64,000 nucleotides of DNA from Oscillospiraceae bacterium. GTDB lineage: Bacteria > Bacillota > Clostridia > Christensenellales > Aristaeellaceae. A program made the position numbers and the translations under genes. The first letter of the stretch is position 1; every line of letters begins with the position of its first letter. Under the pieces are notes generated by a model. The model ran no database searches. It was not told the origin of the DNA and worked only from the letters and a program-made list of their open reading frames with translations. Where the stretch lies: assembly GCA_031270865.1 (NCBI GenBank), contig JAISWI010000019.1:1-64000 (forward strand). Reading direction: 5' to 3'. Below, one piece after another: positions 1 to 53,890 of this stretch.

Positions 1-130
1 CCCTTTACGGGGTTGACGTGAGGTTGGGTGCGCTGGGGCGCTGCCCCAGACCCCGCAAGGGGGTTTCACCCCCCTTGACCCCCTGACCAGCGTGACGCTG
101 GACCCTCGTGGCCAGGGTAAGTTGTTCCTC
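1..130. repeat. Inverted-repeat element family A, copy 1 (left end outside window)
   Basis: The last ~100 bases are nearly identical to the right half of the element at 42931-43188: a C/G-rich hairpin stretch, then CCAGCGTGACGCTGG, then a GGCCAGGGTAA-type sequence ending in TTGTTCCTC. The element ends about 12 bases after the stop codon of the minus-strand ATPase gene at 143. The terminal GAGGAACAA motif (reverse complement) is shared by all three copies in the window. It carries no open frame that looks coding. A role as a non-autonomous mobile element or a transcription-ending palindrome is inferred. Confidence 0.75.
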
Positions 131-142
131 CATGTCTTCTGT

Positions 143-919
143 CTAGTAACCAACAGTCGGGAACAACGCGCGGAAATCCTCACAAGCCAGGACGCTGGCC
201 GGTCCTCCCTGCGCCAACACCTTCCGGTTAAGCAGCACAACCCTATCGGCGTACTTGCTAACCATATCAAAGTCATGCGTAATCAACATAACGCTCACAT
301 CCAGCGTATTGCGAAGCCCATCCACTATCTGGTAGAACCGTTCCCTTCCCTCCGCGTCCAACCCTGAAACAGGCTCATCCATTAACAACAGGTTCGGCGC
401 GGGACGCAGCGCCAGCGCTAGCAGCACCCTCTGCGCCTCACCGCCGGACAACGCGCCTACCCGCCGATCCGCCAGCCCCTCCGCGCCTACCTTAGCTAGC
501 GAATCCAAAATATCCTTGCGCTGCCTCTTACCCGGCGGCATAAACACTGGGCGGTGGAACCTGCTGGCCCGCATCAGATCCATCACAGTGACGGGCGCCA
601 GCCGATCCACGTTAAGCGACTGCGGCACGTAACCAATCCTTGGAACGCGCACGCGCCCTTCGTTCGCGTCTGTAAACGTAATCGACCCCGTGTGCGCCGC
701 CACGCCTAACATCGACTCGAAAAGCGTTGTTTTGCCCGCGCCGTTCGGTCCTATCACGCATGTCAGCTCGCCGCAGTGTATATGCAGGTTGATGTCCTCC
801 AGTATCATCAACCCTTCGCGCTCTACTGAAAGCCCCGTTATCTTCAAGCAGCACGCGCCGCACGAGTCCCTCGCCCCGGGGTGTCGCGGCGTCCTGCCGG
901 TGTCCGCCTTACCGCGCAT
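143..919 (-). CDS. znuC: Zinc/manganese ABC transporter ATP-binding protein
   Basis: ATPase subunit of a cluster A-I type metal importer, working at the inner face of the membrane with the binding protein just upstream and probably the permease at 6216. The frame shows Walker A GPNGAGKTT, Q-loop GYVPQSL, signature LSGGEAQR, Walker B LLLMDEP and the switch His in LITHD. The chosen ATG overlaps the znuA stop region by 11 bases and gives 258 residues. It keeps an N-terminal CGACC cysteine cluster before LKITGLSV, which is common in clostridial members of this family. A longer reading of the frame runs far into znuA and is unlikely. Zn versus Mn cannot be told from the ATPase. Confidence 0.88.
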   Translation of the reverse strand: MRGKADTGRTPRHPGARDSCGACCLKITGLSVEREGLMILEDINLHIHCGELTCVIGPNGAGKTTLFESMLGVAAHTGSITFTDANEGRVRVPRIGYVPQSLNVDRLAPVTVMDLMRASRFHRPVFMPPGKRQRKDILDSLAKVGAEGLADRRVGALSGGEAQRVLLALALRPAPNLLLMDEPVSGLDAEGRERFYQIVDGLRNTLDVSVMLITHDFDMVSKYADRVVLLNRKVLAQGGPASVLACEDFRALFPTVGY

Positions 920-10095: not shown

Positions 10096-12151
<2,056 letters not shown>

Positions 12152-12170
12152 CGCCGCAGTGGCGGAGGGG

Positions 12171-12429
12171 GCGATGCCTTACCTACCCACAGCGGCAGAG
12201 GAGGCGATGCCTTACCTACCCACAGCGGCAGAGGGGGCGATGCCTTACCTACCCACAACGGTAGAGGGGACGATGCCTTACTCACCCACAGCGACAGAGG
12301 AGGCGATGCCTTACCTACCCACAGCGGCAGAGGGGGCGATGCCTAACTAGCCCACAGCGGCAGAGGAAGCAATGCCTTACCAACCCACAACGGCAGAGGG
12401 GGCAATGCCTTACCTACCCACAGCCGTGG
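12171..12429. repeat. Eight-unit 33-bp tandem repeat in the atpG-atpD spacer
   Basis: Units start at 12171, 12204, 12237, 12270, 12303, 12336, 12369 and 12402. Each begins GCGATGCCTTACCTACCCAC or a close variant and continues AGCGGCAGAGG. Because 33 is a multiple of three, the plus strand reads as an 11-residue peptide repeat (AMPYLPTAAEG). The frame has no ribosome binding site and breaks in the sixth unit, so I treat it as non-coding. There are no unique spacers, so it is not a CRISPR array. Confidence 0.85.
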
Positions 12430-12450
12430 ATGGGATCCCCCGCCCTACAC

Positions 12451-23579: not shown

Positions 23580-23690
23580 CGTATCCATCCCCTCGCGGTG
23601 GGATTCGCCCCGTCCCTTCTGTCGCTGAGGGTGACCTTGCCTCGCCCCCTGCCGCTCTCAGGCGACAGAGGGGCGAGGTTTGCCAAACTG
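23580..23690. repeat. Short inverted repeats before the STAND gene
   Basis: CTGTCGCTGAG and CTCAGGCGACAG form arms around a stretch of G/C-rich sequence, followed by AGAGGGGCGAGG. The same GGCAGAGG-GGCGAGGC motif occurs at 25489-25545 after the gene and at 32255-32275, so it belongs to a dispersed family. Confidence 0.6.
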
Positions 23691-25488: not shown

Positions 25489-25600
25489 GGAAGAACAGTC
25501 CCCCCCTGTCGCTTCGGCGGCAGAGGGGGCGAGGCCAAGCCAGCGACGTGGGGACTGTTACCAAATCCCACAACAGAGGAATCCTCTCCCAACCACACAT
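25489..25600. repeat. Short inverted repeats after the STAND gene
   Basis: Contains CCCCCTGTCGC...GCGGCAGAGGGGG arms and a wider CAGTCCCC...GGGGACTG pair (about 25498-25558). It resembles the repeat at 23580-23690 on the other side. The rest of 25601-25716 shows nothing beyond the ribosome binding site of the next gene. Confidence 0.55.
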
Positions 25601-32016: not shown

Positions 32017-32316
32017 ATCCGCCCCTTCTGCCCCTGCGGTGGATCAGGGCGCGTCCCCTCTGTCACCGCGACGGCATCTCCCCCTAAGGGGGCGGCAAGG
32101 GGGATTGGAACGCTGGGGCTATCTTTCCTTTGCCGCCCCTTTAGGGAGGACTGGGACGGGAGGTGTTATCTCCCCCTTGCCACCCCTTTAGGGAGGACTG
32201 GAACGGGGGGTGTTATCTCCCCCTGCCGCCTCTTTAGGGGGAGATGTCACCTCAGCGGCAGAGGGGCGAAGCCTAACCCGCCACGTCCACATAATATTTA
32301 CTAGGAGGACTACGTT
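32017..32316. repeat. Repeat-filled spacer before the aldolase gene (family B element)
   Basis: The left arm near 32073 (GGCATCTCCCCCTAAGGGGG) and the right arm ending near 32248 (TTTAGGGGGAGATG) form an inverted repeat like the one at 11951-12151. Between them a ~46-base unit containing TTTAGGGAGGACTG and GGTGTTATCTCC is repeated twice. The end (CAGCGGCAGAGGGGCG) matches the repeats at 12171-12429 and 25489-25545. The last ~40 bases hold the AGGAGG of the next gene. Confidence 0.75.
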
Positions 32317-35579: not shown

Positions 35580-36887
35580 TTGGATCAATACATGTTCGAC
35601 CATGCCGCCGAGACCATGCCGCGCGGTGAGCTGCGCGATCTGCAGGACAAGCGCCTGCGCGACGTTGTAGCGCTTGTGTATGAAAAGGTGCCGTTCTACC
35701 GCGCGAAGATGCGGGAAGCGGGCATATCGCCTTGCGATATCCACGGCGTGGGCGACTTGCCCAAGCTGCCGTTTACCAACAAGTCCGACCTGCGCGACAA
35801 CTATCCGTTCGGGCTGTTCGCCGCGCCGCAGGATAAGATTACGCGCATACACGCCTCCAGCGGCACGACGGGCAAGCCCACTGTTTCTGGTTATACCGCG
35901 TACGATGTGGATGTGTGGGGTGAGCTGATGGCGCGGGCAATGGCGTGCGCCGGGGTTACTAACAAGGATATTGTACAGGTTTCATATGGGTATGGGCTGT
36001 TTACCGGAGGGTTGGGAGCGCATTACGGCGCGGAACGGATAGGCGCGTCGGTTGTGCCAGCGTCGGTAGGGAATACGCGAAGGCAGATCATGCTGCTGGA
36101 GGATTTTGGAGTGAACGCGCTTGCTTGTACGCCGACATACGCGATAGTGCTGGGCGAGGCGATACGAGAGGCCGGGATACCGCTTTCAAGGTTTAAGCTA
36201 AGGGCAGGGGTTTTTGGCGCGGAGCCGTGGACTGAGGTGCAGCGTAAGCATGTGGAGGGGCTGTTGGGTATACACGCGCACGATGTTTATGGGTTGAGCG
36301 AGGTTATGGGGCCAGGGGTATCGATAGAGTGCGGGGAACAGAAGGGCATGCATATATGGGAGGATCACTTTTTACCGGAGATCATTGATCCGGATACGGG
36401 GGAGCAGCTGGCAAATAGTACGAGAGGGGAAATCGTTTTCACGACGATTACTAAGGAGGGTATGCCGCTAATAAGGTATCGGACGCATGACCTGACCGTT
36501 TTGGACGACACGCCGTGCCCGTGCGGGCGCACGCATGTGCGTATGAAGAAGCTGACAGGGCGCACGGATGATATGTTGATCATACGGGGAGTGAATGTGT
36601 TCCCGTCACAGGTAGAGACCGCGCTGGCCGGGATTGCGGGGATTGAGCCGCAGTATCTGTTGGTGGTTAGGCGGGAGCGGAATTTGGACACGCTGGAGGT
36701 GCGCGTTGAGTTGGCGCCGTCGCTGCCCAGCGATGAGGTGAGGGGTATAGAGCGGATACATGATGAGGTAGAGGCGTCGGTGGATTCGATGCTGGGTATC
36801 CACGCTGAGATTAGGTTGGTGCCGTCGGGGAGTATACCAAGGAGCGAAGGGAAAACCCCTCGAACACAGGACTGGCGGGATAAGTAA
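35580..36887 (+). CDS. paaK: Phenylacetate--CoA ligase-like enzyme
   Basis: 435 residues of the PaaK family (adenylate-forming). ATP-binding ASSGTTGKPTV near residue 96, YGLFTGGLGAHYGAE, YGLSEVMGPGVSIEC, YRTHDLT and the C-terminal DDMLIIRGVNVFPSQVE. TTG at 35580 is the likely start because AAAGGGTG lies about 9 bases upstream. The ATG 12 bases later is less well spaced. With iorAB it would link aryl acids with their CoA esters and keto acids. Confidence 0.92.
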   Translation: MDQYMFDHAAETMPRGELRDLQDKRLRDVVALVYEKVPFYRAKMREAGISPCDIHGVGDLPKLPFTNKSDLRDNYPFGLFAAPQDKITRIHASSGTTGKPTVSGYTAYDVDVWGELMARAMACAGVTNKDIVQVSYGYGLFTGGLGAHYGAERIGASVVPASVGNTRRQIMLLEDFGVNALACTPTYAIVLGEAIREAGIPLSRFKLRAGVFGAEPWTEVQRKHVEGLLGIHAHDVYGLSEVMGPGVSIECGEQKGMHIWEDHFLPEIIDPDTGEQLANSTRGEIVFTTITKEGMPLIRYRTHDLTVLDDTPCPCGRTHVRMKKLTGRTDDMLIIRGVNVFPSQVETALAGIAGIEPQYLLVVRRERNLDTLEVRVELAPSLPSDEVRGIERIHDEVEASVDSMLGIHAEIRLVPSGSIPRSEGKTPRTQDWRDK

Positions 36888-36894
36888 GTACCTG

Positions 36895-36967
36895 GAGGAA
36901 CAACCCACCCTGGCCACGAGGGTCCAGCGTCACGCTGGACCCTCGTGGCCAGGGTAGGTTGTTCCTC
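36895..36967. repeat. Inverted-repeat element family A, copy 2 (near-perfect palindrome)
   Basis: A 73-base palindrome: GAGGAACAACC at the left end, GGTTGTTCCTC at the right, with CCTGGCCACGAGGGTCCAGC inside each arm and one mismatch between arms. It fills the gap between the stops of two convergent genes (8 bases after paaK and 5 before the DUF1667 stop), so it would form a hairpin in both transcripts. Confidence 0.9.
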
Positions 36968-36972
36968 AAGGT

Positions 36973-37353
36973 TTATACCTTGCCAACCGCCGCCGTCGCG
37001 ACAAGCGGCGCGCCCGCCAGGTCATCGATCAGGATCTGGCCAATCTCAACAGGCGCGGACACTATAAGTCCGCGTATCCTAGCCAGCGCGTCCGGTATCC
37101 TTGCCTTCTCAATCTCGCCGCTCGTCTTCACCGACACCAGCGGCCTATCGCCGCCTTGCACCGCCGCGTTCGAGGTAACCACCCGCATTGGCCGCAGATA
37201 CTCCTGCCGACCGTACACCGCCCCCCTCGGGCACGCGTTGCCTGTCACCTTAACCGCGTCGCCATCACCCTCCGCCTTCAGCGGGCAACCTACCGGGCAC
37301 ACTATACAAATGAACTCGCGCTTTCCCCCACCCATCGTTATACTATCAGACAT
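36973..37353 (-). CDS. DUF1667 iron-sulfur/zinc cysteine protein of the GlpABC-like triad
   Basis: 126 residues of the DUF1667 family. Cysteine motifs CIVCPVGCPL and GNACPRGA give four conserved Cys suited to a cluster or metal. It follows the two flavoprotein genes with an overlap, a triad found in many Clostridia, where it is thought to replace GlpC in anaerobic glycerol-3-phosphate oxidation. The exact electron-transfer role is inferred. Confidence 0.8.
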   Translation of the reverse strand: MSDSITMGGGKREFICIVCPVGCPLKAEGDGDAVKVTGNACPRGAVYGRQEYLRPMRVVTSNAAVQGGDRPLVSVKTSGEIEKARIPDALARIRGLIVSAPVEIGQILIDDLAGAPLVATAAVGKV

Positions 37354-38611
37354 TCCCTACCGCCTCCGTCACCACAACCACATCGCCTGTCAGTTTCGAC
37401 ACATCCACCTTCACATGCTCCATCTCGCCTGGGGTCATCGCTTTCTTACGCCTCGTTAATATCGTCTTCCCATCCGCGGTCCTCACGGTCAGACGCGCGG
37501 GTTTAACCGCGTCGCCTACCCTAAAGTACAGGTCTACCATCCCTTCCGGCTCCGCGCTGATCCGCTGCGGCACCACATACCTTGTAAACCCTTCCGCACT
37601 CACGCTCAACTTCGGCATGGGCAGCGTCCCGGCCTTCGCGTACCCAGCGGCGTACCTTCCCGCGATCTCCGCCTCTCGGCTGACGTGATCCACCAGGTCA
37701 TGCACTTGCAGCACATTCCCGCACGCGAACACTCCTGGCAGACTCGTCTGCCTTCGCTCGTCGACTACCGCGCCTCCCGTCACTGGATCCAACTGTATCC
37801 CCGCCATGCGCGTCAACTCATTCTCCGGCATCAACCCTACTGACAGCAGCAGCGTATCGCACTCAACCACCCGCTCTGTCCCAGGTATCGCTTGCCGCTT
37901 CCCATCCACTTTCACTACCGTCACCGCCTCGACGCGCTCGGACCCATGCACCCGCGACACTGTCGTATTAAAGTATAACGGTATGTCGTAATCCCTCAAA
38001 CATTGCACGATATTCCTATTCAACCCGCTTGAATACGGCATCAACTCGCACACCATCAGCACCTTCGCGCCTTCCCATGTGAGGCGTCTCGCCATGATCA
38101 ACCCGATATCCCCGGATCCCAGTATGACCACGCGTCTGCCGGGCAGGTACCCGTCCAGATTGACCAGACGCTGCGCCGCTCCAGCAGTATATACCCCCGC
38201 CGGGCGCGTGCCTGCTATCCCCAACGCGCCGCGCGCTCGCTCGCGGCATCCCATTGCCAGCACGACCGCGCCGGGTTTTATCGTCAGCGGGCCTTCGCGC
38301 GGGCTTACTGCCGTTATCGTCCTATCGCTGTCCAGCGACAGCGCCATCGTGTCCGGCAGGAACGACACGCGGTCGGCGCGTCTTGCCGCCTCGCCCGCGA
38401 ACCTGGCCGCGTACTCCGGCCCGGTCAGTTCCTCACCGAAGTAATGCAGGCCAAACCCGTTATGGACGCATTGCTGTAATATCCCGCCGGGCCGCGCGTC
38501 CCTCTCCAGCAGCAGCACGTTCGCGCCCTTATCCACCGCCGCGACAGCCGCCGCCAGACCTGCCGGACCCGCGCCTATTACCGCGACATCCGTCGCTCGA
38601 ATACCCGTCAT
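37346..38611 (-). CDS. FAD/NAD-dependent oxidoreductase of the GlpABC-like triad
   Basis: 421 residues. FAD-binding VIGAGPAGLAAAVAAVDKGANVLLLERDARPGGILQQC, a second nucleotide site GSGDIGLIMARRLTWEGAKVLMV, and the family region VVDERRQTSLPGVFACGNVLQVHDLVDHVSREAEIAGRYAAGY. Pyridine nucleotide-disulfide oxidoreductase fold, in the position of GlpB. It overlaps the GlpA-like gene upstream by 4 bases and the DUF1667 gene downstream by 8 bases. Confidence 0.85.
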   Translation of the reverse strand: MTGIRATDVAVIGAGPAGLAAAVAAVDKGANVLLLERDARPGGILQQCVHNGFGLHYFGEELTGPEYAARFAGEAARRADRVSFLPDTMALSLDSDRTITAVSPREGPLTIKPGAVVLAMGCRERARGALGIAGTRPAGVYTAGAAQRLVNLDGYLPGRRVVILGSGDIGLIMARRLTWEGAKVLMVCELMPYSSGLNRNIVQCLRDYDIPLYFNTTVSRVHGSERVEAVTVVKVDGKRQAIPGTERVVECDTLLLSVGLMPENELTRMAGIQLDPVTGGAVVDERRQTSLPGVFACGNVLQVHDLVDHVSREAEIAGRYAAGYAKAGTLPMPKLSVSAEGFTRYVVPQRISAEPEGMVDLYFRVGDAVKPARLTVRTADGKTILTRRKKAMTPGEMEHVKVDVSKLTGDVVVVTEAVGNV

Positions 38612-40089
38612 GCCCGCGCCTCCCCTTCAACGGCGCGTCCGCCAACGGACTCGCGTATCGGACCGACCAGCATCCGTGAGCCGCCGCCGAATTTAGTAAT
38701 GCTATCCATAGACACGCCTCGTTCCCGCGCGAGTGTCTCCATTACGCGCGGGGCGCAGAATCCTCCCTGACATCGGCCCATACCGGCCCGGACGCGCCGC
38801 TTCACGCCGTCCAGCGACCTCGCGCCGCGCCGTATCGCCTCGACTATCTCACCCTCGGTGACGGTCTCGCAGCGGCAGACCACATGGCCCCAGCGCGGGT
38901 CGCTGGCTATTACCTCCGCCTGGCGTTCGCGCGTCATCCCGGCGAACCGCTCGATGGGCTCGCGGATCGGGTTCCAGTCCGGTTTCGCCTTGAGCCGCAA
39001 GCCCTGGTTTGCCAGTATGTTGACTATCTCTTCCGCGATGGCTGGCGCGCTGGTCAAGCCGGGCGAGGCGATGCCCGCCGCGTGGATCAGCCGCGGTTCT
39101 ATGCCGCTGGCCCTGATGATGAAGTCGCCCGTCGAGCCGACGGCCCGCAGCCCCGAGAACGCCGTTATAGCGGCGCGGAGGTTCAGTCCCGGCGCCGAAC
39201 GCAGCGCGAGCCGGCGCAGTTCAGCCGCGCCTTCCCCCGTCGTGGACGTGTCGGACTTATCCGTCTGGTCCAGCGCGGTTGGTCCGGCGAACGCGTTGCC
39301 GTCGGCGGTCGGGCTGACGAGCACGCCCTTGCCCATCACGGACGGGGCCTGGAACAGCACGCGCTTCGGGGCCGAACCATCCTTATCCAGCAGTATGTAT
39401 TCGCCCTTGCGCGGCTTGATCGAGAACGACTGGTCGCCGAACAGCCGCGCGACCTCGTCCGCGTACAATCCGGCAGCGTTGACCACATACCGGGCGCGGA
39501 CGCTCGAGCCGCTGTCCGCGTTCAAGATGAAATGGCCGTCGCCGCGCTCGACGCTGGCCACGCGCGTGTCGAAGAACGTGGCAAGGCCGTTCGCGCGGGC
39601 GTTCTCCCAGCACCCTATCGTCAGCTGGTACGGGCTGGTTATGCCAGCCGTCGGCGCCCACAACGCCTGTATCACGTCCGGGTTGACGAGCGGCTCCAAC
39701 GCGCGGGCCTCACCGCCGCTGACCAACTCCATGCCCGGCACGCCGTTGGCCAGGCCGGATTCGTACAGCTCTTCCAATGAACGTTGATCCGTCTCGTCGA
39801 ACGCCAGCGCCAGCGACCCGCAGCGTACCAGCGGAACGCCCAGCTCGCCGCACCATTGGTCAAACATGGCGTTGCCGCGCGCGTTCAGCCGCGCCATCGC
39901 GCTGCCCGGCGCCGCGTCGTAACCCGCGTGGACGATACCGCTGTTCGCGCGTGACGCGCCCATCGACACATCCTCGGCAGCCTCCACCAGCGCGAGGCTT
40001 AAGCCATACTTCGACAGCAGCCGCGCCGCCGCGCATCCGGTCACGCCGCCCCCAATAATCGCGCAATCAAATATATCCGGCCTGTCCAA
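38608..40089 (-). CDS. glpA: Anaerobic glycerol-3-phosphate dehydrogenase-like flavoprotein with BFD iron-sulfur domain
   Basis: 493 residues. FAD site DCAIIGGGVTGCAAARLLSKYGLSLALVEAAEDVSMGASRANSGIVHAGYDA, as in DadA/GlpA-type enzymes, and a C-terminal [2Fe-2S] BFD-like domain (VVCRCETVTEGEIVEAIRRGA... GRCQGGFCAPRV). TTG at 40089 was chosen: GGAGG lies about 8 bases upstream, and the promoter at 40127-40155 would start RNA near 40120, downstream of the GTG at 40125. Glycerol-3-phosphate is the likely substrate by the triad context. Confidence 0.82.
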   Translation of the reverse strand: MDRPDIFDCAIIGGGVTGCAAARLLSKYGLSLALVEAAEDVSMGASRANSGIVHAGYDAAPGSAMARLNARGNAMFDQWCGELGVPLVRCGSLALAFDETDQRSLEELYESGLANGVPGMELVSGGEARALEPLVNPDVIQALWAPTAGITSPYQLTIGCWENARANGLATFFDTRVASVERGDGHFILNADSGSSVRARYVVNAAGLYADEVARLFGDQSFSIKPRKGEYILLDKDGSAPKRVLFQAPSVMGKGVLVSPTADGNAFAGPTALDQTDKSDTSTTGEGAAELRRLALRSAPGLNLRAAITAFSGLRAVGSTGDFIIRASGIEPRLIHAAGIASPGLTSAPAIAEEIVNILANQGLRLKAKPDWNPIREPIERFAGMTRERQAEVIASDPRWGHVVCRCETVTEGEIVEAIRRGARSLDGVKRRVRAGMGRCQGGFCAPRVMETLARERGVSMDSITKFGGGSRMLVGPIRESVGGRAVEGEARA

Positions 40090-40126
40090 GCCATCCGCCT
40101 CCAGAATCCAATAAATCCCCACCAAG

Positions 40127-40155
40127 TATTAACCATATTCCACGCGCCATGTCAA
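40127..40155 (-). promoter_or_regulatory. Sigma-A promoter of the GlpABC-like triad
   Basis: On the minus strand TTGACA, a 17-base spacer, TTAATA. Confidence 0.65.
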
Positions 40156-40249
40156 GCTATTAGCCCAATGGAATATAAACCCTCCGTAGTACGTCTTATT
40201 GGTGTGGGGCAATCCCAATATAACCCGATTGGCGGAGAAGGAGGTCCAG

Positions 40250-41545
40250 ATGGAACATAGGTTGCGCGGTAACCTTTCGCTTAGGATAACCGCCCTCGCG
40301 CTTGCGGCGATGCTGCTGGCCGCCGCGTTCAGCGTTAAGACCGCGTCGGCGGAGGGCGCGGTCAGCTTACCCGTAGGCTCGTATGTCAGGACTGGCGCGG
40401 TCAGTAACCCCAGGGCGTCTGACTACCTGAACCTGCGCGCGCTGCCCAGCGTGGGCGCGGCGTCGCTGGCGCAGTACCGCAACAGTGAGCGCGTGGAGGT
40501 CTGGGGCGCGCTGGGCGAGTGGTCACTCGTGCGCGTGCTCCGCGACAACCGCACGGGCTACATGATGAGCGCATACCTGAAGATGGATACGCCCGATCCC
40601 GTCGCGCCGGTTCTACCGGTTGATCCGGTTGAGCCAGGCATCGAAGGTGGGTATGTCGCCACGACCAACGGCGGACGGCTGAACCTGCGTGAGTCGCCCT
40701 CGCTGGCATCGCGCTCACTGGGACTGTACTATGTCGGCGTGAAGGTGCGCGTACTGTCTTACTTGAACGAGGTATGGGCGCGTGTCTCCGTCGGTGAAGG
40801 CGAGGGGATACAGTATGGATACATGCAGCGGCAGTATATTTACACGTTCACAGATACGAATCGCGGTAAAGTTCCGGAAAATACTTATATGCAGCCGTCG
40901 TTTATCAGGCCGCTTGACAACTGGCCACTGTACGGCCAGCCGTCCGACACCGCCGCCATCATCGGTCGTTACAGCGCTATACAACCTATAGAAGTGCTAG
41001 GGGTTGGAGCTGGAACGGGACAACGCTGGTGGCATGTGCGTTTCCCCGGCGACAGCGTGAATCCGGCGCAGACAGGGTTCATCCCTGCTGACGACGAAAG
41101 CCTATTGGCTCATAAGGTTATGGCGGTAAAAGCGCCAGGGCCGTCGTATGCGTTGAACTTACGCGATCATCCTAGTTACGATGGAGTAATATTGGGCAGA
41201 GTTTACAACGGCGCTTCTGTGACGGTGTTTGAGGAGTACAGCGCTCCGAGCTGGGCGTTTGTGTGTGTCGGCATACCGGGCAGAGGAACAGTGTACGGCT
41301 ACATGCGTAACGATTTGATTCAAATGGATAAGACACAGGTAGCGGACAGGCGGCCAGTAAAGACGATGCGCAGCGGGCTTAGCGTGCCGATGCTCGCCGA
41401 ACCAAACGCGCAAGCGCAAGCCCTCGCGCTCTACAAGTCTGACGGCCGCGCCTTGACGGTCATCGGCGTTTACGGAGGGTATACGCAGGTGTTCGACGAA
41501 CAGACGGGATTGTCAGGTTTCTTTGAAAACAGTCACCTAAATTAG
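40250..41545 (+). CDS. Secreted protein with bacterial SH3 repeats
   Basis: 431 residues. ATG with AAGGAGG upstream, then a signal peptide (LRITALALAAMLLAAAFSVKTASAEG). At least four SH3b-like repeats follow, each with the LNLR-type turn (DYLNLRALPSVGAASLAQYRNSERVEVWG; GRLNLRESPSLASRSLGLYYVGVKVRVL; YALNLRDHPSYDGVILGRVYNGASVTVF). No catalytic domain is seen, so it is probably a wall-binding surface protein rather than a hydrolase. Confidence 0.85.
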   Translation: MEHRLRGNLSLRITALALAAMLLAAAFSVKTASAEGAVSLPVGSYVRTGAVSNPRASDYLNLRALPSVGAASLAQYRNSERVEVWGALGEWSLVRVLRDNRTGYMMSAYLKMDTPDPVAPVLPVDPVEPGIEGGYVATTNGGRLNLRESPSLASRSLGLYYVGVKVRVLSYLNEVWARVSVGEGEGIQYGYMQRQYIYTFTDTNRGKVPENTYMQPSFIRPLDNWPLYGQPSDTAAIIGRYSAIQPIEVLGVGAGTGQRWWHVRFPGDSVNPAQTGFIPADDESLLAHKVMAVKAPGPSYALNLRDHPSYDGVILGRVYNGASVTVFEEYSAPSWAFVCVGIPGRGTVYGYMRNDLIQMDKTQVADRRPVKTMRSGLSVPMLAEPNAQAQALALYKSDGRALTVIGVYGGYTQVFDEQTGLSGFFENSHLN

Positions 41546-41567
41546 CCGTCTTTACCAAACAGAGGAC

Positions 41568-41609
41568 ACAGCGCGGGGGATGAATTCCCCCGCGCTGTCT
41601 ATCTTTTAT
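41568..41609. terminator. Bidirectional terminator hairpin
   Basis: A 13-base-pair stem (ACAGCGCGGGGGA and TCCCCCGCGCTGT) with a 5-base loop, followed by CTATCTTTTA. It lies between the convergent SH3 and DUF4342 genes. Confidence 0.85.
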
Positions 41610-41619
41610 ACCGAAGCCG

Positions 41620-42057
41620 TTAAGTTTCACCGCCGTCCTTCGCGGGTTTCCTCGGGTCGCGCACCCGATATCCCGCCATCCCACCGACGACCGCGCCCGC
41701 GAGGGCCAGATAGGGCGCGAATACCGCCGTGGCGATCGGCACAACCAGCGGCACTTCGGCAACTGACTCGCCGTCGCGCGTGATCTGCAGTTTCGCCCGA
41801 AGCAGCTTACGGTACCACGCGTCGTGGTTGCGGTCCTTGCGCCAGTCGCGGCGCCCATCCTTGCCGCGCGTGTACACGCTGTCCCATAAACCGCCGCCAT
41901 GCCCAGGATTGGTGTAGAGGCGGTTGCCGCGCTCCAGCTCGATCATAGCGCGTGTCAGGTCGCCATCGTAACGCTCCAGCAGCGAGGCTGCTTCCTCGTA
42001 TCCGATGTTGGCGTTTGCCCGCAGGTATTCGATCTTCTCAAATAGTTCCTTGTTCAT
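41620..42057 (-). CDS. DUF4342 protein with UBA-like domain (paralogue of the 9322 gene)
   Basis: About 145 residues, starting with MNKELFEKIEYLRANANIGYEEAASLLERYDGDLTRAMIELERGNRLY, which matches the N-terminus of the gene at 9322-9942. The DUF4342-like part (RKLLRAKLQITRDGESVAEVPLVVPIATAVFAPYLALAGAVVGGMAG) has a hydrophobic segment. Two adjacent ATGs follow AGGAGG; the second has the better spacing. Confidence 0.78.
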   Translation of the reverse strand: MNKELFEKIEYLRANANIGYEEAASLLERYDGDLTRAMIELERGNRLYTNPGHGGGLWDSVYTRGKDGRRDWRKDRNHDAWYRKLLRAKLQITRDGESVAEVPLVVPIATAVFAPYLALAGAVVGGMAGYRVRDPRKPAKDGGET

Positions 42058-42212
42058 CATGATCCTCCTCATCCGCCCTCGGCGGTTTCTTGTAACTAAG
42101 CGTCCCGCGACAGTATTAGTATACAGCGCAGGCGCGGTTCCAGCTTGAGAGGAAGCGGAGGATAGCATGAGAATTGGGTTAGAATTTGATGGAGACGCGC
42201 TAGAAAGCGCGG

Positions 42213-42872
42213 TTACCGCTTGCCGCACACGATAACGGCGGTTCCGTTACGCCGAAAAACCGTCTCGACACTAACGAAACCAGCCTCGCGGAACAGCTTG
42301 GCCTGATTGTCAATGGTCAGTGGCGTATCGCAATGATAGAACGCTTCCTCCGGAACGCCCTGGCTAGCGCGGAGCCGCCGCGCCTCCTCAGCCATCCGGT
42401 CCTGCTCGGCTTGGGTATTAACCATATAGTCGCACTCAATGTACCTGCCGCCAGGTTTCAGGGATTGGTATACGGCGGCGTACAGCGCGGACTTCCGCGC
42501 GTAAGTCCAATGGTGCATCGTTTCTACGGAAACCGCCGCGTCATACAGCCCCTCGCCGAAATCGCGATCAAGGTAACTGCCGCAAATCAGAGTGACGTCT
42601 TTGCCGGGGAACTTCGCGCGAAGCCTGTCAAGCATGGCCAGTGTAAGGTCGATTCCTGTCACTCGTATATCGGGGCGCAAGGCGAATATACTCTCTAGTT
42701 CCAAGCCCGTGCCGCAGCCCAGGTCGAGCAGGGTTTGCGCGTCCGGCGGAACCAGACGCGCCACGAGCGCGTATGCCTCCGGCAGTTCCTCAATGTCGGT
42801 GAGCATGTGCTCATCATAGACGGACAACCGCGCGGCGAAGAAGTCGGACATAGGCTCAATAGGGTTAGTCAT
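42213..42872 (-). CDS. Class I SAM-dependent methyltransferase
   Basis: 219 residues. SAM-binding motif TLLDLGCGTGLELES, acidic motif VTGIDLTLAMLDRLRAKFPGKDVTLICGSY, and post-motif YDAAVSVETMHHW. The substrate is unknown; small-molecule methyltransferases of this type are hard to assign. AAAGGGAATT precedes the ATG. Confidence 0.85.
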   Translation of the reverse strand: MTNPIEPMSDFFAARLSVYDEHMLTDIEELPEAYALVARLVPPDAQTLLDLGCGTGLELESIFALRPDIRVTGIDLTLAMLDRLRAKFPGKDVTLICGSYLDRDFGEGLYDAAVSVETMHHWTYARKSALYAAVYQSLKPGGRYIECDYMVNTQAEQDRMAEEARRLRASQGVPEEAFYHCDTPLTIDNQAKLFREAGFVSVETVFRRNGTAVIVCGKR

Positions 42873-42930
42873 TGTTAATTCCCTTTTAACTTCAACTCAT
42901 TATCCCGTTATATAACAAATTTAAAGCATG

Positions 42931-43188
42931 GAGGAACAATCCATCCTTGCGGGGTGCGGGGCAAAGCCCCGCGTCCCCCGGTCGTCGTCTCTCAATCCCT
43001 GCCCCGCAGGGCATAAATAACCTTGTGGGCTTCGCCCTTTACGTGGGGTTTGCGTGGGGTTTGCGTGGGGTTTGCGCGGGGCTGGAGACGCTGGGGCTCT
43101 GCCCCAGACCCCGCAAGGGGGTTTCACCCCCCTTGACCCCCTGACCAGCGTGACGCTGGACCCACTTGGCCAGGGTAAATTGTTCCTC
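42931..43188. repeat. Inverted-repeat element family A, copy 3 (258 bp)
   Basis: Ends in GAGGAACAAT and ATTGTTCCTC. The interior holds three GGGGTTTGCGT-like repeats, a GCTCTGCCCCAG hairpin region and CCAGCGTGACGCTGG. The right ~100 bases match the window's first 130 bases. It ends 5 bases before the stop of the EF-G-like gene and begins about 58 bases upstream of the methyltransferase ATG. No coding frame inside is convincing. Confidence 0.85.
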
Positions 43189-43193
43189 CAGGT

Positions 43194-45275
43194 TTACTCG
43201 TCCTCGTCCTCATCCTTCTTGGCCGAGTCGATGATCTTCTGAGCGATGTTCCCCGGCGCTTCCTCGTAGCGGTCATACGCCATCGTGAACGACCCGCGGG
43301 CTTGAGTCATCGAGCGCAGATCGGTCGCGTACTTGAACATCTCCGCCTGCGGCACCTCGGCCACAACCTGCTGCGCCCCAGCGGTCTGGTTCATGCCCAG
43401 TATCCGGCCCCGGCGACGGTTCATATCGCCTATAATATCGCCCATGTACTCGTCGGGGATCTCCACCTCAACATGATATATAGGCTCCAGCAACGCCGGA
43501 CTTGCCTCCATGCATCCCTTCTTGTAAGCGATACGCGCCGCCGTCTTGAACGCCATTTCTGACGAATCAACCGGATGATACGACCCATCATACAGTATCG
43601 CGCGAAGCCCGACCATCGGGAACCCAGCCAGCACGCCTTTAGGCAGGTTCTCCCTCAATCCCTTCTCTACCGACGGTATGAAGTTGCGCGGCACTACGCC
43701 GCCTACCACCTTATCTACAAACTCAAACTCCGTCGATCCATCCCCTATCGGCTGAAACTCTATCCACACATCACCGAACTGACCGTGCCCGCCCGTCTGC
43801 TTCTTGTGCCGTCCCTGCGCCTTCACCGACTTGCGGATCGTTTCCCGATACGGGATCTTCGGATCTTGCAGTATCGCTTCCACGCCGAATTTAGCGCTTA
43901 GCTTCCTCGATATGACCTCCAAATGCAGCTCGCCCAACCCGGACAGCAGCGTCTCTAGCGTGGACTCGTTCTTCTCTATGCGGATCGTCGGATCCTCCTC
44001 CTGCAGCCGGCTAAGCCCCGTGAACACCTTATCCTCCTCGCCGCTCTTTTTGGCGTAAACGGCCATCGAGATACACGGCGCTGGGAACTCTATATCGGGA
44101 TACTGGATCGGCTTACCCGCGTCGCAGAGGGTATGTCCGGTGTTCGTATACTGCAGCTTGGACAACGCGCATATATCCCCGGCCAGCGCTTTCTCGGCGG
44201 GTATCTGCTTCTTGCCGCGCAGGATATATATCGTCCCGGCCTTCTCAGCCCGGTCGGTGTTCGCGTTATACAGCGGCGTGTCCGTGCCCAGCGCGCCTGA
44301 AAGCACCTTGAACAGCGAGAGCTTGCCTACGAACGGGTCGGCTATCGTCTTGAACACCTGCGCGGAGAACGGCGCGGCGGCCTCGCACACGCGCGAGTCT
44401 TCGGCCCCGGTCCTCGGGTTGACGCCTTTAGAAACCTTACCCGCCGGGCCTGGCATGAACGATAACAGGATATCCATCACCGCCGTAACGCCCGTGCCGC
44501 TTACTCCGGCGCAGCAGCATACCGGCACGACGGTCCCGTCCGCTACGCCCGCGCGTAGTCCCTTTACCGTTTCCTCGGGTGAAAGCTCGCCCTCCTCGAA
44601 GTATTTCTCCATCAGGGCTTCGTCGGCTCCGGCAGCGGCCTCGGTGATCGCTTCCTTAGCGGAGGCTATCTGTTCCGCCATGTACGCGGGAACCGCGCCT
44701 TCCTTGACCGCCTTGCCCGATCCGGTATACGCCTTGCCGTCCAGCGCGTTTACCACGCCGGTGAAGCTCAGACCTTCGCCGATGGGAAGCGTCACGGGCA
44801 CTACCGCTGGGCCGTACTTCTCCCGCAGCCGCTCCAGTATCTTCTGGAACGAGGCGTGCTCGCGGTCCATCTGGTTTATCACGAAGCACTTGGGCGCGCC
44901 GTACTTGGACGCGAAGTCCCACGCCTTCTCCGTGCCGACCACCAAGCCTGACACCGAGCCTACCGTGATCAACACGCCGTCCGCTACGCGCAGCGGGCCC
45001 ATCATCTCGCCGATGAAGTCGAAGTAGCCGGGCACGTCGATCAGGTTGATCTTGCTGTCTTTCCACTCGATGGGCGCGACGGCCGCGCTTAGGGATATGC
45101 CGCGCTTGGTTTCTTCCGGCTCGAAGTCAGTGGTCGCGCCGCCGTCCTCGACCCGTCCCTGCCTGTCCACTGCCCCGGACGCGTACAGCATGGCCTCGAC
45201 CAGCGTGGTCTTGCCCTCGCTGCCGTGTCCGACGACCGCAATGTTGCGGATGTTCTCCGCCGAATATTCTTTCAT
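43194..45275 (-). CDS. EF-G-like translational GTPase paralogue
   Basis: 693 residues, full EF-G length. The P-loop is VVGHGSEGKTTL rather than the GHVDHGKTT of canonical EF-G. The G3 region reads LIDVPGYFDFIGE and G4 INQMDRE. Domains III-V follow (PFVGKLSLFKVLSG, EVISRKLSAKFGV, QTGGHGQFGDVWIEFQP, MGDIIGDMNRRRGRILGM). These features mark the EF-G-like (FusA2-type) group common in Clostridia, not the ribosomal-operon EF-G. Its role in translation or rescue is not settled. Confidence 0.88.
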   Translation of the reverse strand: MKEYSAENIRNIAVVGHGSEGKTTLVEAMLYASGAVDRQGRVEDGGATTDFEPEETKRGISLSAAVAPIEWKDSKINLIDVPGYFDFIGEMMGPLRVADGVLITVGSVSGLVVGTEKAWDFASKYGAPKCFVINQMDREHASFQKILERLREKYGPAVVPVTLPIGEGLSFTGVVNALDGKAYTGSGKAVKEGAVPAYMAEQIASAKEAITEAAAGADEALMEKYFEEGELSPEETVKGLRAGVADGTVVPVCCCAGVSGTGVTAVMDILLSFMPGPAGKVSKGVNPRTGAEDSRVCEAAAPFSAQVFKTIADPFVGKLSLFKVLSGALGTDTPLYNANTDRAEKAGTIYILRGKKQIPAEKALAGDICALSKLQYTNTGHTLCDAGKPIQYPDIEFPAPCISMAVYAKKSGEEDKVFTGLSRLQEEDPTIRIEKNESTLETLLSGLGELHLEVISRKLSAKFGVEAILQDPKIPYRETIRKSVKAQGRHKKQTGGHGQFGDVWIEFQPIGDGSTEFEFVDKVVGGVVPRNFIPSVEKGLRENLPKGVLAGFPMVGLRAILYDGSYHPVDSSEMAFKTAARIAYKKGCMEASPALLEPIYHVEVEIPDEYMGDIIGDMNRRRGRILGMNQTAGAQQVVAEVPQAEMFKYATDLRSMTQARGSFTMAYDRYEEAPGNIAQKIIDSAKKDEDEDE

Positions 45276-47753: not shown

Positions 47754-48936
47754 AACCATCCAAAAGAGGGTCGTCTACGCTGACGATTTCGCCATTTTGA
47801 TAGTACGCCCGTGGGACGCGCCGTCCGGTCATGGCCAGCGGTTCGTTGCGGTTGCTGCCGATCCACGCGGCGAACTCCTCTACGGGGATAACGTCCTCGC
47901 CCTCGCCGCCTAGCGCGGTCACGATATCGCCGACCTGGATACCCGGAACGTCGGTGACATCCAGCATGGATTGGTCCATGCACGGCAGTCCGGCGTAACG
48001 GACGCGAACGCCACGGACCGACGCCTGGCCGCGTTCGCGCAGGCGGCGCGGCAGTCCATCCGCGTAGCCCAGCGGGATTGCCGCGATGATGGTCTCGCGC
48101 GTGGCGCGGTATGTCCCGTCGTAGCCCACGCCCTCGCCGGGTTGGATGGTACGCGTCGAGACGATTCTTGCGCAAAGCCGCATAACCTTTCGCGGGATGA
48201 ACGGAGCGTCGGCTATAACATTTCCATATAGTATCGCGCCGACGCGGACCATGCCCAGCCGCCACTTAGGATACCGGAACGCGGCGATGCTGTCGGCGGC
48301 GTGGAGGCATGGACCGCGTCCCGATGAATCGGCAAGAGGTTGGGCGACGCTGAAGAATCTGTCCATCTGCGCCCGATCGTGGTCCTCATCGATCAGCGCA
48401 AGGTGGGTGAACACGCCGTCGACGGCAAGGCCCGGCATGGACAATATGCCGGGCAGGTCGGCCCGCGCCTCGTCGATCGTCATGCCCAGCCGATGGAACC
48501 CGGTATCAATCTTCACATGGGCGTGGGCGGTCAAGCCGCGCGACATGGCCGTCTCGCCCAGCCGCCGCGCCTGTCCGACATCGCAGACCGTGAGCGCTAT
48601 ACCGTTAACAATCGCGGCGGCCAGCAGGTCGTCGGGCGCGTAACCCATCGACCACAGCGCGGCCGGACCCCTTGTCTCCCCTTTAGGGGAGACGGCGCCG
48701 AAGACGCCGAGGTGTTTCAAGTATAGCGCCTCGCGGACGCTGGCGGTCGCGATCACGTCGGCGCCGGCGTCCCAGAGCGCGCGGGCGCATTCGACCATAC
48801 CATGGCCGTACGCGTCGGCCTTGACGACAGCGGCTATCCTCACGCCGGGACCGACCGCCGCGCGGACGGATTCAAGGTTGAGCCGCAGCGCGTCCAGGTT
48901 GATCTCCTGCCACGCGCCGCCGAGCGGACTTGCCAT
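47713..48936 (-). CDS. alr: Alanine racemase
   Basis: 407 residues, PLP-dependent L/D-alanine interconversion for peptidoglycan. PLP-lysine motif VVKADAYGHG near residue 39, HVKIDTGFHRLG, VRVGAILYG, and catalytic Tyr in GVGYDGTYRA. Between KHLGV and the usual lead-in to LWSMGYAPDD is an extra FGAVSPKGETRG encoded by the palindrome at 48674-48693, a copy of the family B repeat in frame. TATGGAGG precedes the ATG. Confidence 0.93.
   Translation of the reverse strand: MASPLGGAWQEINLDALRLNLESVRAAVGPGVRIAAVVKADAYGHGMVECARALWDAGADVIATASVREALYLKHLGVFGAVSPKGETRGPAALWSMGYAPDDLLAAAIVNGIALTVCDVGQARRLGETAMSRGLTAHAHVKIDTGFHRLGMTIDEARADLPGILSMPGLAVDGVFTHLALIDEDHDRAQMDRFFSVAQPLADSSGRGPCLHAADSIAAFRYPKWRLGMVRVGAILYGNVIADAPFIPRKVMRLCARIVSTRTIQPGEGVGYDGTYRATRETIIAAIPLGYADGLPRRLRERGQASVRGVRVRYAGLPCMDQSMLDVTDVPGIQVGDIVTALGGEGEDVIPVEEFAAWIGSNRNEPLAMTGRRVPRAYYQNGEIVSVDDPLLDGFMAQTSFPQHIHP
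48667..48696. repeat. Family B repeat inside the alr coding region
   Basis: GTCTCCCCTTTAGGGGAGAC (48674-48693) is a perfect 20-base palindrome, followed on the coding strand by AAGGGGTCCGG. It matches the CTCCCCTAAAGGGG-AAGGGG core of the intergenic elements at 11951 and 32073. It keeps the reading frame. Confidence 0.75.
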
Positions 48937-50542: not shown

Positions 50543-50665
50543 CACATTTCTAAAAATTTTTTAATGCGCCGGGATGAATCAGCGCGCGGCAGGCGTTTTA
50601 TGGGATAAGGCCAGCGCGACGGGCTGCCAGGTTGCCTCATGCCCGCCCCGGTCAGCCCGTTGCGG

Positions 50666-50791
50666 TCAGCCAGCCGCGCGGGTCGCGCCTTCCCGCTTCC
50701 CTTCCTGAATCCCTTCCCGTTTCCCCTCCTGCTTCCAGTAGGTTCCTAAAGCCCGTCCGTACTCTTCGATACTGAACTCCTCACTTAACAT
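50666..50791 (-). pseudogene. Third (shortest) tandem copy of the Rpn C-terminal reading frame
   Basis: 41 codons reading MLSEEFSIEEYGRALGTYWK, then GKREGIQEGKREGA and a divergent end. The same GGAGGTGATC signal sits 3 bases before the ATG (50795-50804). After the repeat tract the sequence no longer matches the parent and stops early. It could be a decayed duplicate or a short functional peptide. Confidence 0.6.
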
Positions 50792-50831
50792 ACCGATCAC
50801 CTCCGCAGTGCGCTCCAACTAACCCCTTCAA

Positions 50832-51122
50832 TCAGCGTAGACGGAGGATCGCGTCTTCACTCAACCCGGTGACAGCCGCAATCAGACTCATATCGCAACC
50901 TAGATCCCGCATGCGCAGGACTGTCTCCAAGCGGTTTTCCTCCGCGCCTTCCCGCTTCCCCTCCTGAATCCCTTCCCGCTTTCCCTCCTGAATCCCTTCC
51001 TGAATCCCTTCCCGCTTCCCCTTCTGAATCCCTTCCTGAATCCCTTCCCGCTTCCCTTCCTGCTTCCAGTAGGTTCCTAAAGCCCGTCCGTACTCTTCGA
51101 GACTGAACTCCTCACTTAACAT
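50832..51122 (-). CDS. Free-standing copy of the Rpn C-terminal small protein
   Basis: 96 residues from the ATG at 51122, nearly identical to the C-terminus of the Rpn gene at 51163-52158: MLSEEFSLEEYGRALGTYWKQ, an EGKREGIQ repeat tract, then AEENRLETVLRMRDLGCDMSLIAAVTGLSEDAILRLR. GGAGGTGATC (51126-51135) gives a near-complete match to the 16S anti-Shine-Dalgarno with 8 bases from GGAGG to ATG. An upstream TTG could add nine residues. In E. coli, small proteins from internal starts of rpn genes block the full Rpn toxin. By analogy this copy may be an extra antitoxin. Confidence 0.7.
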   Translation of the reverse strand: MLSEEFSLEEYGRALGTYWKQEGKREGIQEGIQKGKREGIQEGIQEGKREGIQEGKREGAEENRLETVLRMRDLGCDMSLIAAVTGLSEDAILRLR

Positions 51123-51162
51123 ACCGATCACCTCCGCAGCGCGCTCCAACTAACCCCTTCAA

Positions 51163-51477
51163 TCAACGTAGACGGAGGATCGCGTCTTCACTCAACCCGG
51201 TAACAGCGGCAATCAGACTCATATCGCAACCTAGATCCCGCATGCGGAGGACTGTCTCCAGGCGGTTTTCCTCCGCGCCTTCCCGCTTCCCTTCTCGCTT
51301 CCCTTCCTGAATCCCTTCCCGCTTCCCCTCCTGAATCCCTTCCCGCTTCCCTTCCCGCTTCCCCTTCTGAATCCCTTCCTGAATCCCTTCCTGAATCCCT
51401 TCCCGCTTCCCTTCCTGCTTCCAGTAGGTTCCTAAAGCCCGTCCGTACTCTTCAATACTGAACTCCTCACTTAACAT
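51163..51477 (-). other. Putative intragenic small protein of the Rpn gene (internal start)
   Basis: In frame with the Rpn gene. The GGAGGTGATC at 51481-51490 is an almost full complement of the 16S rRNA tail, far stronger than needed inside a coding region. It is conserved in the two downstream partial copies and, in weaker form (GGAGGTGG), in the paralogue at 52970. Internal translation of rpn genes is established in E. coli; here it is inferred. Confidence 0.6.
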
Positions 51478-52158
51478 ACCGATCACCTCCGCAGCATGCT
51501 TACTAAAATAGTCGGCAAGTATCCCGGCCTTGACGCAGTCCTGTATGGCGCGGCTCAACGCTTCCGTTGCGCTCATCCCATGCGCCTGGTACTCGCGCCC
51601 GCGCCGGACAACCTCCACATACCCAAACAGACTCTCGCTCTTCCGGACCAACTCCGCGTTCTCCGGATCGTGGATATTATAGACCACCGTCTGCAGTTCG
51701 ATGAACGTATCAGTTTCCAACTGCGCGCGCGGTTCTTTGTACGAATCGGACAGCTTAAGGATCTGCCTGGCAGGTTGCTCTTGTTTGCCATTATACAGCA
51801 CGACGAACACTGGCCGGGGCAAATCTAGTTTTCCCGGGATGTAAGTAAGGTGCCGCTCAACCATAGCTTCGAGTATCCGCCCGTAATACGAGACAAACCG
51901 GACGGTTACGCTCCTATTGACAGTGGACTGGTGCTCACCCAGAAAGAGCACGGTATTGCCCACGCGCAAGGCGAGGTCGTTCTGGATACCCATGAAGAAT
52001 ACGCCGGTCAGCGTTTCTATCTCCACCTCGGTATCCGGCGGGTAGTTTGTGTCCATAACGGCGTTGACCAGCTCCAAGCCGCGTTCCCTGTCGTTGAACA
52101 GCGAGGCGAAGAACCCGGCCTTGAACGCGCGCTTGAAGTCCAGCGGTTGGTCAGCCAC
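51163..52158 (-). CDS. Rpn-family PD-(D/E)XK nuclease (recombination-promoting nuclease/transposase-like)
   Basis: 331 residues starting with GTG; AAGGAGGGG lies upstream. Residues 1-220 form the nuclease core: DFKRAFKAGFFASLFNDRERGLELVNAVMDTNYPPDT, then IQNDLALRVGNTVLFLGEHQSTVN with the acidic and E-x-Q residues of the PD-(D/E)XK site. Then come a helical region, an EGKREGIQ 12-base-unit repeat tract and a conserved C-terminal helix. An internal ATG at 51477, with GGAGGTGATC before it, would make a 104-residue C-terminal protein. Known relatives are DNA-damaging, anti-phage toxins held by such intragenic proteins. Confidence 0.85.
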   Translation of the reverse strand: MADQPLDFKRAFKAGFFASLFNDRERGLELVNAVMDTNYPPDTEVEIETLTGVFFMGIQNDLALRVGNTVLFLGEHQSTVNRSVTVRFVSYYGRILEAMVERHLTYIPGKLDLPRPVFVVLYNGKQEQPARQILKLSDSYKEPRAQLETDTFIELQTVVYNIHDPENAELVRKSESLFGYVEVVRRGREYQAHGMSATEALSRAIQDCVKAGILADYFSKHAAEVIGMLSEEFSIEEYGRALGTYWKQEGKREGIQEGIQEGIQKGKREGKREGIQEGKREGIQEGKREGKREGAEENRLETVLRMRDLGCDMSLIAAVTGLSEDAILRLR

Positions 52159-52969: not shown

Positions 52970-53890
52970 ATGCCCGACGAACCGCTGAACCTTAAACGCG
53001 CGTACAAGTCCACGTTCTTCGCGTCCCTGTTCAACGATCAGGAGCGCGGCCTGGAACTTGTCAACGCCGTTTTGAATACTAACTATCCTCCGGATACCAA
53101 AGTGACCATCGAGACGCTGTCCAATGTGTTCTTCATGGGCGTCAAGAATGACCTCGCGCTGATGGTCGGCGACACCGTCCTGTTCCTGGGCGAGCACCAG
53201 TCCACGATCAACAGGAGCATCCCAGTCCGGTTTTTATCGTATTATGGCCGAATCCTAGAAGCCATGGTCGAGCGCGATCATACCTACATCCCAGGCATAG
53301 TGGAGCTGCCCAAGCCCGTATTCATCGTCCTGTACAACGGTAAGGATGAATATCCCGCCAAAAGTATACTAAGGTTGTCCGATTCATACATAAAATCAGA
53401 CGTGAACCTGGCGAATGAGTCGTTCATCGAGCTGGCCGCGCTAGTCTACAACATCCATGACCCCGGGAACGCGGACTTGCTCGGCAAGAGCCGGTATCTC
53501 TACGGATATGTGGAGGTGGTGCGGCGTGGGCGCGAGTATCAGGCGCAGGGCATGTCCTCGCTGGACGCTGTCAAACAAGCTATATTGGACTGCGTCAAGG
53601 ATGGTATAATTGCCGACTATTTGAAAAAATATGGAGCGGAGGTGGCAGGTATGCTGTCAGAGGAGTTTAACTTTGAAGACGCGTTAAGGGTAAACGCGAG
53701 TTACTACCTTAAGGTGGGGATGGAGCGGGGGATGGAGCGGGGGATGGAGCGGGAGATGGAGAGGCGCAACCGGGAGTTGGTCTTCCTGTTGCGGGGAATG
53801 AATAAGGACATGGGTGAAATCATCGCCATTACGGGATTGGCTGAAAATGAGATTCGTCGGCTGTGGTGTTCAAATACAGATGGCGGCTGA
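52970..53890 (+). CDS. Rpn-family PD-(D/E)XK nuclease, paralogue
   Basis: 306 residues, a clear paralogue of the gene at 51163-52158 (LNLKRAYKSTFFASLFNDQERGLELVNAVLNTNYPPDT; KNDLALMVGDTVLFLGEHQSTIN with the E-x-Q site). AAGGAGGGG precedes the ATG. The variable tract near the C-terminus here is a GMER repeat, unlike the GKREGIQE tract of the other gene, and the final helix (DMGEIIAITGLAENEIRRL) is conserved. An internal ATG at 53651 follows GGAGGTGG and would give a 79-residue small protein. Confidence 0.85.
   Translation: MPDEPLNLKRAYKSTFFASLFNDQERGLELVNAVLNTNYPPDTKVTIETLSNVFFMGVKNDLALMVGDTVLFLGEHQSTINRSIPVRFLSYYGRILEAMVERDHTYIPGIVELPKPVFIVLYNGKDEYPAKSILRLSDSYIKSDVNLANESFIELAALVYNIHDPGNADLLGKSRYLYGYVEVVRRGREYQAQGMSSLDAVKQAILDCVKDGIIADYLKKYGAEVAGMLSEEFNFEDALRVNASYYLKVGMERGMERGMEREMERRNRELVFLLRGMNKDMGEIIAITGLAENEIRRLWCSNTDGG
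53651..53890 (+). other. Putative intragenic small protein of the plus-strand Rpn gene
   Basis: Internal in-frame ATG with GGAGGTGG at 53638-53645, 8 bases from GGAGG to ATG. The start (MLSEEFNFEDALRV) aligns with the internal start of the other Rpn gene. Confidence 0.5.

Follow-up and report, generated by a model that had tools for sequence, protein, structure and literature searches.

What is a near-perfect palindrome doing in the narrow space between two convergent genes? One such element lies in the window analysed here, the 64,000-base stretch that forms the start of contig C35 (C35:1-64000) of the source genome (G000: 2,912,600 bases, 102 contigs, listed completeness 91.5%). Two related copies lie in the same window. 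The original prediction read their shape as that of miniature transposable elements and their position as that of terminators. The locus thus asks where such repeats come from, and what they do at the ends of genes.

The copies in the window

All three inverted-repeat copies are present as described (Table 1), and each does stand 5-12 bases from at least one stop codon: counted from the GAGGAACAA/TTGTTCCTC motifs, the gaps are 12 nt for copy 1 (stop at 143), 7 and 5 nt for copy 2 (stops at 36887 and 36973) and 5 nt for copy 3 (stop at 43194). Counted from the element edges, they are 8 nt for copy 1 and 3 and 1 nt for copy 2. The description of copy 2 as a near-perfect palindrome between convergent genes also holds: its 81-nt extent, which includes the terminal CCTG/AAGG, is made up of 41-nt arms that a repeat tool scores as 95% complementary, with predicted RNA folding energies of -78.1 and -82.4 kcal/mol for the two strands.

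Table 1. Copies of the repeat in the window and the genes adjoining them
Feature	Position	Strand	Description
Copy 1	1..134	.	Long form truncated by the contig start; one end and some of the body remain
Copy 2	36891..36971	.	81-nt short form, near-perfect hairpin, between convergent genes
Copy 3	42927..43192	.	266-nt long form; 1 nt separates its right edge from the EF-G stop
ABC transporter ATPase gene	143..919	-	PF00005; 3' end towards copy 1; start approximate
AMP-binding enzyme gene	35592..36887	+	PF00501, PF14535; 3' end towards copy 2
DUF1667 protein gene, convergent	36973..37353	-	PF07892; 3' end towards copy 2
Methyltransferase gene	42213..42872	-	PF13649; start towards copy 3
Elongation factor G (EF-G) gene	43194..45275	-	PF03764, PF00009 and others; 3' end towards copy 3

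The copies were also held to differ by internal loss or gain. This fails for copy 1, of which one end only is visible because the contig start cuts it, so that its shortness is not internal loss; positions 9-140 align with 43067-43198 at 89% identity. It would hold for the short and long forms, which have the same ends. Copy 3 has the GGGTCCAGCGTCACGCTGG part missing from its left arm, and on that other side, 54 nt from the element edge, a methyltransferase gene starts on the same strand as EF-G. Over the whole window, 14 matches to the motif occur at one mismatch or fewer, against 6.8 +/- 2.7 in shuffled sequence.

Other repeats share the window. A second palindromic family, built round CCCCTTTAGGGGAGAT, occurs at 11947-12483, 23632-23673, 25501-25542, 32055-32279 and 48662-48712, and is in part a 33-nt tandem array (12121-12483). 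Direct repeats spaced at 331 nt occupy 50616-51500; two ORFs of opposite orientation, 331 and 306 aa long, overlap a 709-nt inverted pair (51449-52157 and 52971-53679, 73% identity).

A species-wide family

The three copies are members of a species-wide repeat family. Genome-wide, GAGGAACAA has 209 exact occurrences, as against 38 for the same pattern read backward. Ends were studied in a sample covering part of the genome, 139 stretches round listed sites plus the window (627,287 bases in all), in which 193 exact motifs were found among the matches listed; 180 of these, the element ends among those matches, were accepted on the presence of C at -4 and T at -2, or of an inner ACC. The end consensus is fuller than GAGGAACAA alone, and reads C[A/C]T[G/T]GAGGAACAA. 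From these 180 ends, with the genome partly sampled, the copy number is estimated at about a hundred elements.

Both ends are in view for 31 elements among the matches listed: 19 of 81 nt, one of 71 nt, one of 56 nt and 10 of 266-546 nt. Nine of the 10 long elements carry the arm GAGGAACAACCTACCCTGGCCACGAGGGTCCAGCGTCACGCTGGTCAGGGGGTCAAGGGGGGTGAAACCCCCTTGCGGGGT, with small variations, at both ends; in copy 3 much of it is missing from one side. Taken without the segment between its two copies of CCAGCGTSACGCTGG, the long form matches the short form, which would have arisen from it by deletion between these direct repeats. With inverted-repeat ends and many copies, the elements have no ORF, as judged from the ORF list and from their size (81-546 nt). 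Seven half-elements (L106, L112, L133, L187, L190, L199 and L204) have one GAGGAACAA end, and on the other side TGGC(G/A)..., with some mutual similarity; this side is perhaps an older second end type.

The family has left its mark on the assembly. Contigs end inside an element at 90 of 204 contig ends, so the repeat explains much of the fragmentation of this genome. At the ends of contigs C31 and C37, where two of the 81-nt elements lie (L107 and L116), the sequence past the element is the reverse complement of its own flank, a 46-nt fold-back that the palindrome has probably induced as an artefact of assembly. Three of the longest elements (L073, L153 and L191) contain G and C runs that resemble assembly errors.

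Rfam models placed nothing above gathering score in 36500-43400 of the window (only microRNA-precursor models appeared, the best at 51.3 bits against 79); copy 2 had no match in phages, nor copy 3 in plasmids. The literature titles and abstracts searched name no such family, and the core 15-mer was not found, in either orientation, in the literature text searched.

Placement relative to genes

Gene ends come from a hexamer model for which long ORFs of the same stretches served as training set; it gives exact stops and approximate starts. Going outward, 126 of the 180 ends meet a stop as the nearest gene boundary and 40 meet a start; five lie inside a gene model, and nine have no gene in view. 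Stops are close, at a median of 5.5 nt, and starts further off, at 102 nt. Of the 166 ends that face either kind of boundary, 92 have a stop no more than 15 nt away, and none comes that close to a start. When ends are placed at random in gaps without elements, 9.7 +/- 3.0 fall within 15 nt of a stop (maximum 20 in 2000 runs); even with equal weight per gap the expectation is 36.9 +/- 5.2 (maximum 57). Restriction to ends with unique flanks leaves the result in place (91 of 164), and the ends of short forms behave like the others (median 5 versus 6 nt to the stop). Placement is thus not random, which leaves the claim that these elements sit against gene ends unrefuted, and extends it with strong support from three copies to the genome.

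At 25 of the 31 complete elements a stop is no further than 15 nt away on one side or both, and at eight on both. Among gaps of 30 nt or more, convergent ones make up 20 of the 45 that hold an element and 12 of the 206 that do not. In 12 of 14 convergent gaps that hold a complete element, the non-element DNA amounts to 30 nt or less. At 10 of the 126 ends that face a stop the distance is negative, the element extending into the stop codon or the codons just before it.

Comparison with relatives

Copy 2 was compared by blastn with 60 genomes, its own and those of 59 relatives. Two gave matches: its own and G001 (JAIRSO01, Oscillospiraceae bacterium isolate Ct408_bin33), of the same genus, where eight weak matches occur. 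Synteny round copy 2 is maintained in G001, with 77% identity over 6 kb, and the copy 2 site there is an element-free convergent gap of 41 nt. In two further relatives (G002 and G003), the sequence that follows the gene upstream of this site differs. Where the source genome has copy 3, close behind the EF-G stop, all three of these same-genus relatives show other hairpins by eye.

The comparison could be widened to 123 element-adjacent gene ends, of which 53 were matched in 626 kb of G001, 36 of them at more than 55% identity. The possibility that elements trim or extend proteins was rejected on these pairs: C-terminal length is the same in 28 and differs by at most two residues in 34 of the 36, the remaining two differing by 15 and 83. 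A narrower set, with the element within 26 nt of the stop in the source genome and identity of at least 60%, was examined for hairpins, a hairpin being called significant at z below -2 versus shuffles. Within 60 nt behind the stop, 13 of 28 G001 orthologues have a significant hairpin, versus none of 60 coding controls. Behind genes that carry the repeat in the source genome, the relative often has unrelated hairpins; the repeat has therefore probably taken over as gene-end signal.

G001 has a repeat family of its own, with a CCAGCG-NNN-CGCTGG core and a GGTCAGGGGGTCAAGGGGGG body, as in the source-genome element. Its ends are different, AAGGCAAAAG... and GGAYRGACTCCCC..., one of each at least once. 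Placement, measured for 11 of its 19 cores, is mixed: eight face stops (at -8 to 1275 nt) and three face starts.

Mobility and the missing parent

How far do these repeats deserve the name of miniature transposable elements? Copy number, presence in two of 60 genomes and the element-free syntenic site in G001 favour it. Against it, no target-site duplication was found: no direct repeat of 2-9 nt exceeds shuffled flanks in 26 of the 31 complete elements (three were dropped for too little flank, two for fold-back ends). Nor did the search proposed for a transposase with matching ends, made here with the Pfam profiles Y1_Tnp, DDE_Tnp_1 and rve, succeed. On this evidence, two traits expected of a miniature transposable element are lacking.

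Several routes to a mobilizing enzyme were considered. A REP arrangement with a RAYT transposase was rejected for want of a Y1 domain: Y1_Tnp has no match in any of five genomes (the source and four relatives), while the control was positive in five of 14 genomes. A parent of DDE_Tnp_1 or rve type was likewise not found in the source genome, 91.5% complete as it stands (controls positive in nine and six of 14 genomes, respectively). An IS110-type candidate parent is represented by one Transposase_20 match on contig C30, its reading frame in pieces; a reverse-transcriptase route, by one RVT_1 match with two internal stops. The ORF of a parent element would be recognised by the end sequence CMTKGAGGAACAA. 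The parent may have been lost, may be unassembled, or may belong to another family. About a hundred mobile-looking repeats are present all the same, in a genome in which none of Y1_Tnp, DDE_Tnp_1 and rve was detected.

Do the elements end transcripts?

The proposal that the elements now serve as terminators is plausible: they stand where relatives have other hairpins, but the T-tract is weak and the arms show no significant covariation. The T-tract of the element amounts to no more than TTGTT. Among 36 gene ends with an element, 25 pass a threshold of at least four T in eight and six pass one of at least five; a strict terminator scan flagged neither copy 2 nor copy 3. In an alignment of 31 copies, five of them half-elements, arm covariation is 0.897, against 0.889 +/- 0.007 when arms are shuffled, and 314 of 2000 shuffles reach 0.897; a structure kept by compensatory change was rejected on this ground. 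Leaving the element itself aside, a terminator is found at 8 of 36 gene ends that bear an element, at 39 of 161 ends elsewhere in the source genome (11 of 161 after shuffling) and at 10 of 28 in G001. The first fraction is not clearly below the other two, so this test does not support a loss of native terminators.

We put at about one in two the chance that a non-autonomous mobile hairpin repeat has spread in one species, has been kept mostly right behind stop codons, and stands in there for the gene-end hairpins of the host. The sequence of events would be simple. The repeat, in short (81-nt) and long (266-546-nt) forms with the same ends, would spread in the species; its RNA would fold directly behind the stop codon in the transcript; as the element is palindromic, it would serve both of two convergent genes, as terminator, as 3' block against exonucleases, or as both; and with that service supplied, the native terminator would become dispensable. 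A non-autonomous mobile hairpin that persists at gene ends, and probably acts there as a two-way structure, is the simplest account of the position and symmetry of the elements, of the hairpins that relatives have at the same places, and of the scant other DNA in convergent gaps. We infer from these features that the element ends transcription, and a terminator role is plausible. There is counter-evidence to the terminator reading: 40 of 180 ends face a start, and at some sites (L104 and L202) the element lies behind a native terminator-like hairpin that has been kept.

Alternative readings

One rival is a parasitic, functionless repeat, which inserts anywhere and survives behind stop codons as the place where it does least harm. 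The absence of significant arm covariation agrees with this. Small repeats are, moreover, commonly enriched between convergent genes, which for those of the pneumococcus has been explained in this way (PMC3049150). The distances tell against it. Under a null of tolerance only, the median distance to the stop is 75 nt, with 16% of ends within 15 nt; stop-facing ends have a median of 5.5 nt, with 73% within 15 nt. A parasitic repeat would also require that the remaining gap DNA be lost later. As an explanation it is unlikely.

A second rival locates the cause in insertion itself: the machinery would pick the DNA just behind stops, or native gene-end hairpins, and function, if any, would be secondary. 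Distances of 0-12 nt are hard to obtain otherwise. A weak motif does lie outside the ends, GCAAG being present in 28 of 172 flanks versus 4.7 expected, and the group of motifs to which it belongs is most frequent 12-13 nt from the edge, whether a stop or a start is faced. However, the group is found within 22 nt at only 34 of the 126 ends that face a stop and 9 of the 40 that face a start, leaving 92 and 31, respectively, without it; the 41-nt gap that G001 has at the copy 2 site contains no obvious strong hairpin by eye; and no enzyme for such targeting is known. We regard targeted insertion as quite unlikely to be the main cause of the placement.

Control of translation or mRNA stability, as proposed for E. 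coli REPs, through ribosome stalling or a 3' exonuclease block with no end to transcription, would suit the 92 of 126 stop-facing ends that lie within 15 nt of the stop, but it is highly improbable as the explanation, since one copy stands behind the EF-G gene, where reduced translation should cost, and since palindromy and convergent context fit two-way termination at least as well.

Relation to known hairpin repeats

The mobile gene-end hairpin preferred here has several parallels, for which published accounts serve as comparison (PMC12306157, PMC3733652, PMC10969869 and PMC3049150). SPRITE, as there described, is likewise a small interspersed hairpin repeat, near gene 3' ends and enriched between convergent genes, and is a proposed co-opted terminator; the element agrees with it in both aspects of placement. 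The two differ in build: in SPRITE an 18-bp duplex precedes a U-rich tract, whereas the element has a palindrome with a stem of about 34-35 bp, a weak TTGTT and inverted-repeat ends, a separation that is made by description, not by sequence.

REP and BIME repeats, with their GTAG or CGTC tags, are also high-copy extragenic palindromes. In one account (PMC3733652), most convergent REPs in two species have both 3' ends no more than 20 bp away, and CGTC repeats too are described without a known transposase; REPs there are 20-40 bp long and carry the GTAG or CGTC tag, whereas the element is 81 nt or more, without such an end tag and without a Y1 transposase. None of the marks of a GTAG REP/RAYT system (tag, 20-40 bp unit and Y1_Tnp gene) was found for this repeat, 19 of whose 31 complete copies are 81 nt long. 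MITEs resemble it in being short, without ORF, with inverted-repeat ends, many near-identical copies and forms with internal deletions; unlike them, it has no target duplication, and no parent insertion sequence was found with the transposase profiles searched. The element answers to the definition of a MITE in part. It is a separate family, which works like the SPRITE and REP repeats.

A shared core in other genomes

The centre of the element reaches beyond this species. A core scan of named genomes returned 80 stretches among the matches listed, 13 from G001 and 67 from others. An exact 20-mer, GGTCCAGCGTCACGCTGGTC, which is contained in the long form of the element, is present in 44 of those 67 (47 of 75 matches) among the matches listed, and is one of 16 pattern combinations. 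Genomes that bear it, again among the matches listed, come from Nitrospinota, Verrucomicrobiota, Oscillospiraceae and others. A version longer by one G is present in 12 viral contigs, and a single control palindrome in none. Alignment of 58 copies gives a core unit of about AYTGGGTCCAGCGTCACGCTGGTCA, with scant conservation further out. The unit is inside open frames of at least 200 codons in 22 of 59 cases, versus 81% of random positions. The 20-mer may equally be shared by descent, through a binding protein in common, or by convergence.

A bolder extension would combine these observations: a mobile hairpin aimed just behind stops would be replacing native terminators genome-wide, with the core AYTGGGTCCAGCGTCACGCTGGTCA as a recognition hairpin that lineages share and that each surrounds with a repeat of its own. 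The odds of this are slender.

Significance

Similar hairpin repeats are already known in other bacteria; here a new family joins them. It provides a clear case of a mobile-looking repeat that occupies gene 3' ends genome-wide. As a genome of the same genus shows alternative gene-end structures, the question that hangs over REP-like repeats, whether they are tolerated or used, becomes testable by comparison and by reporter assay.
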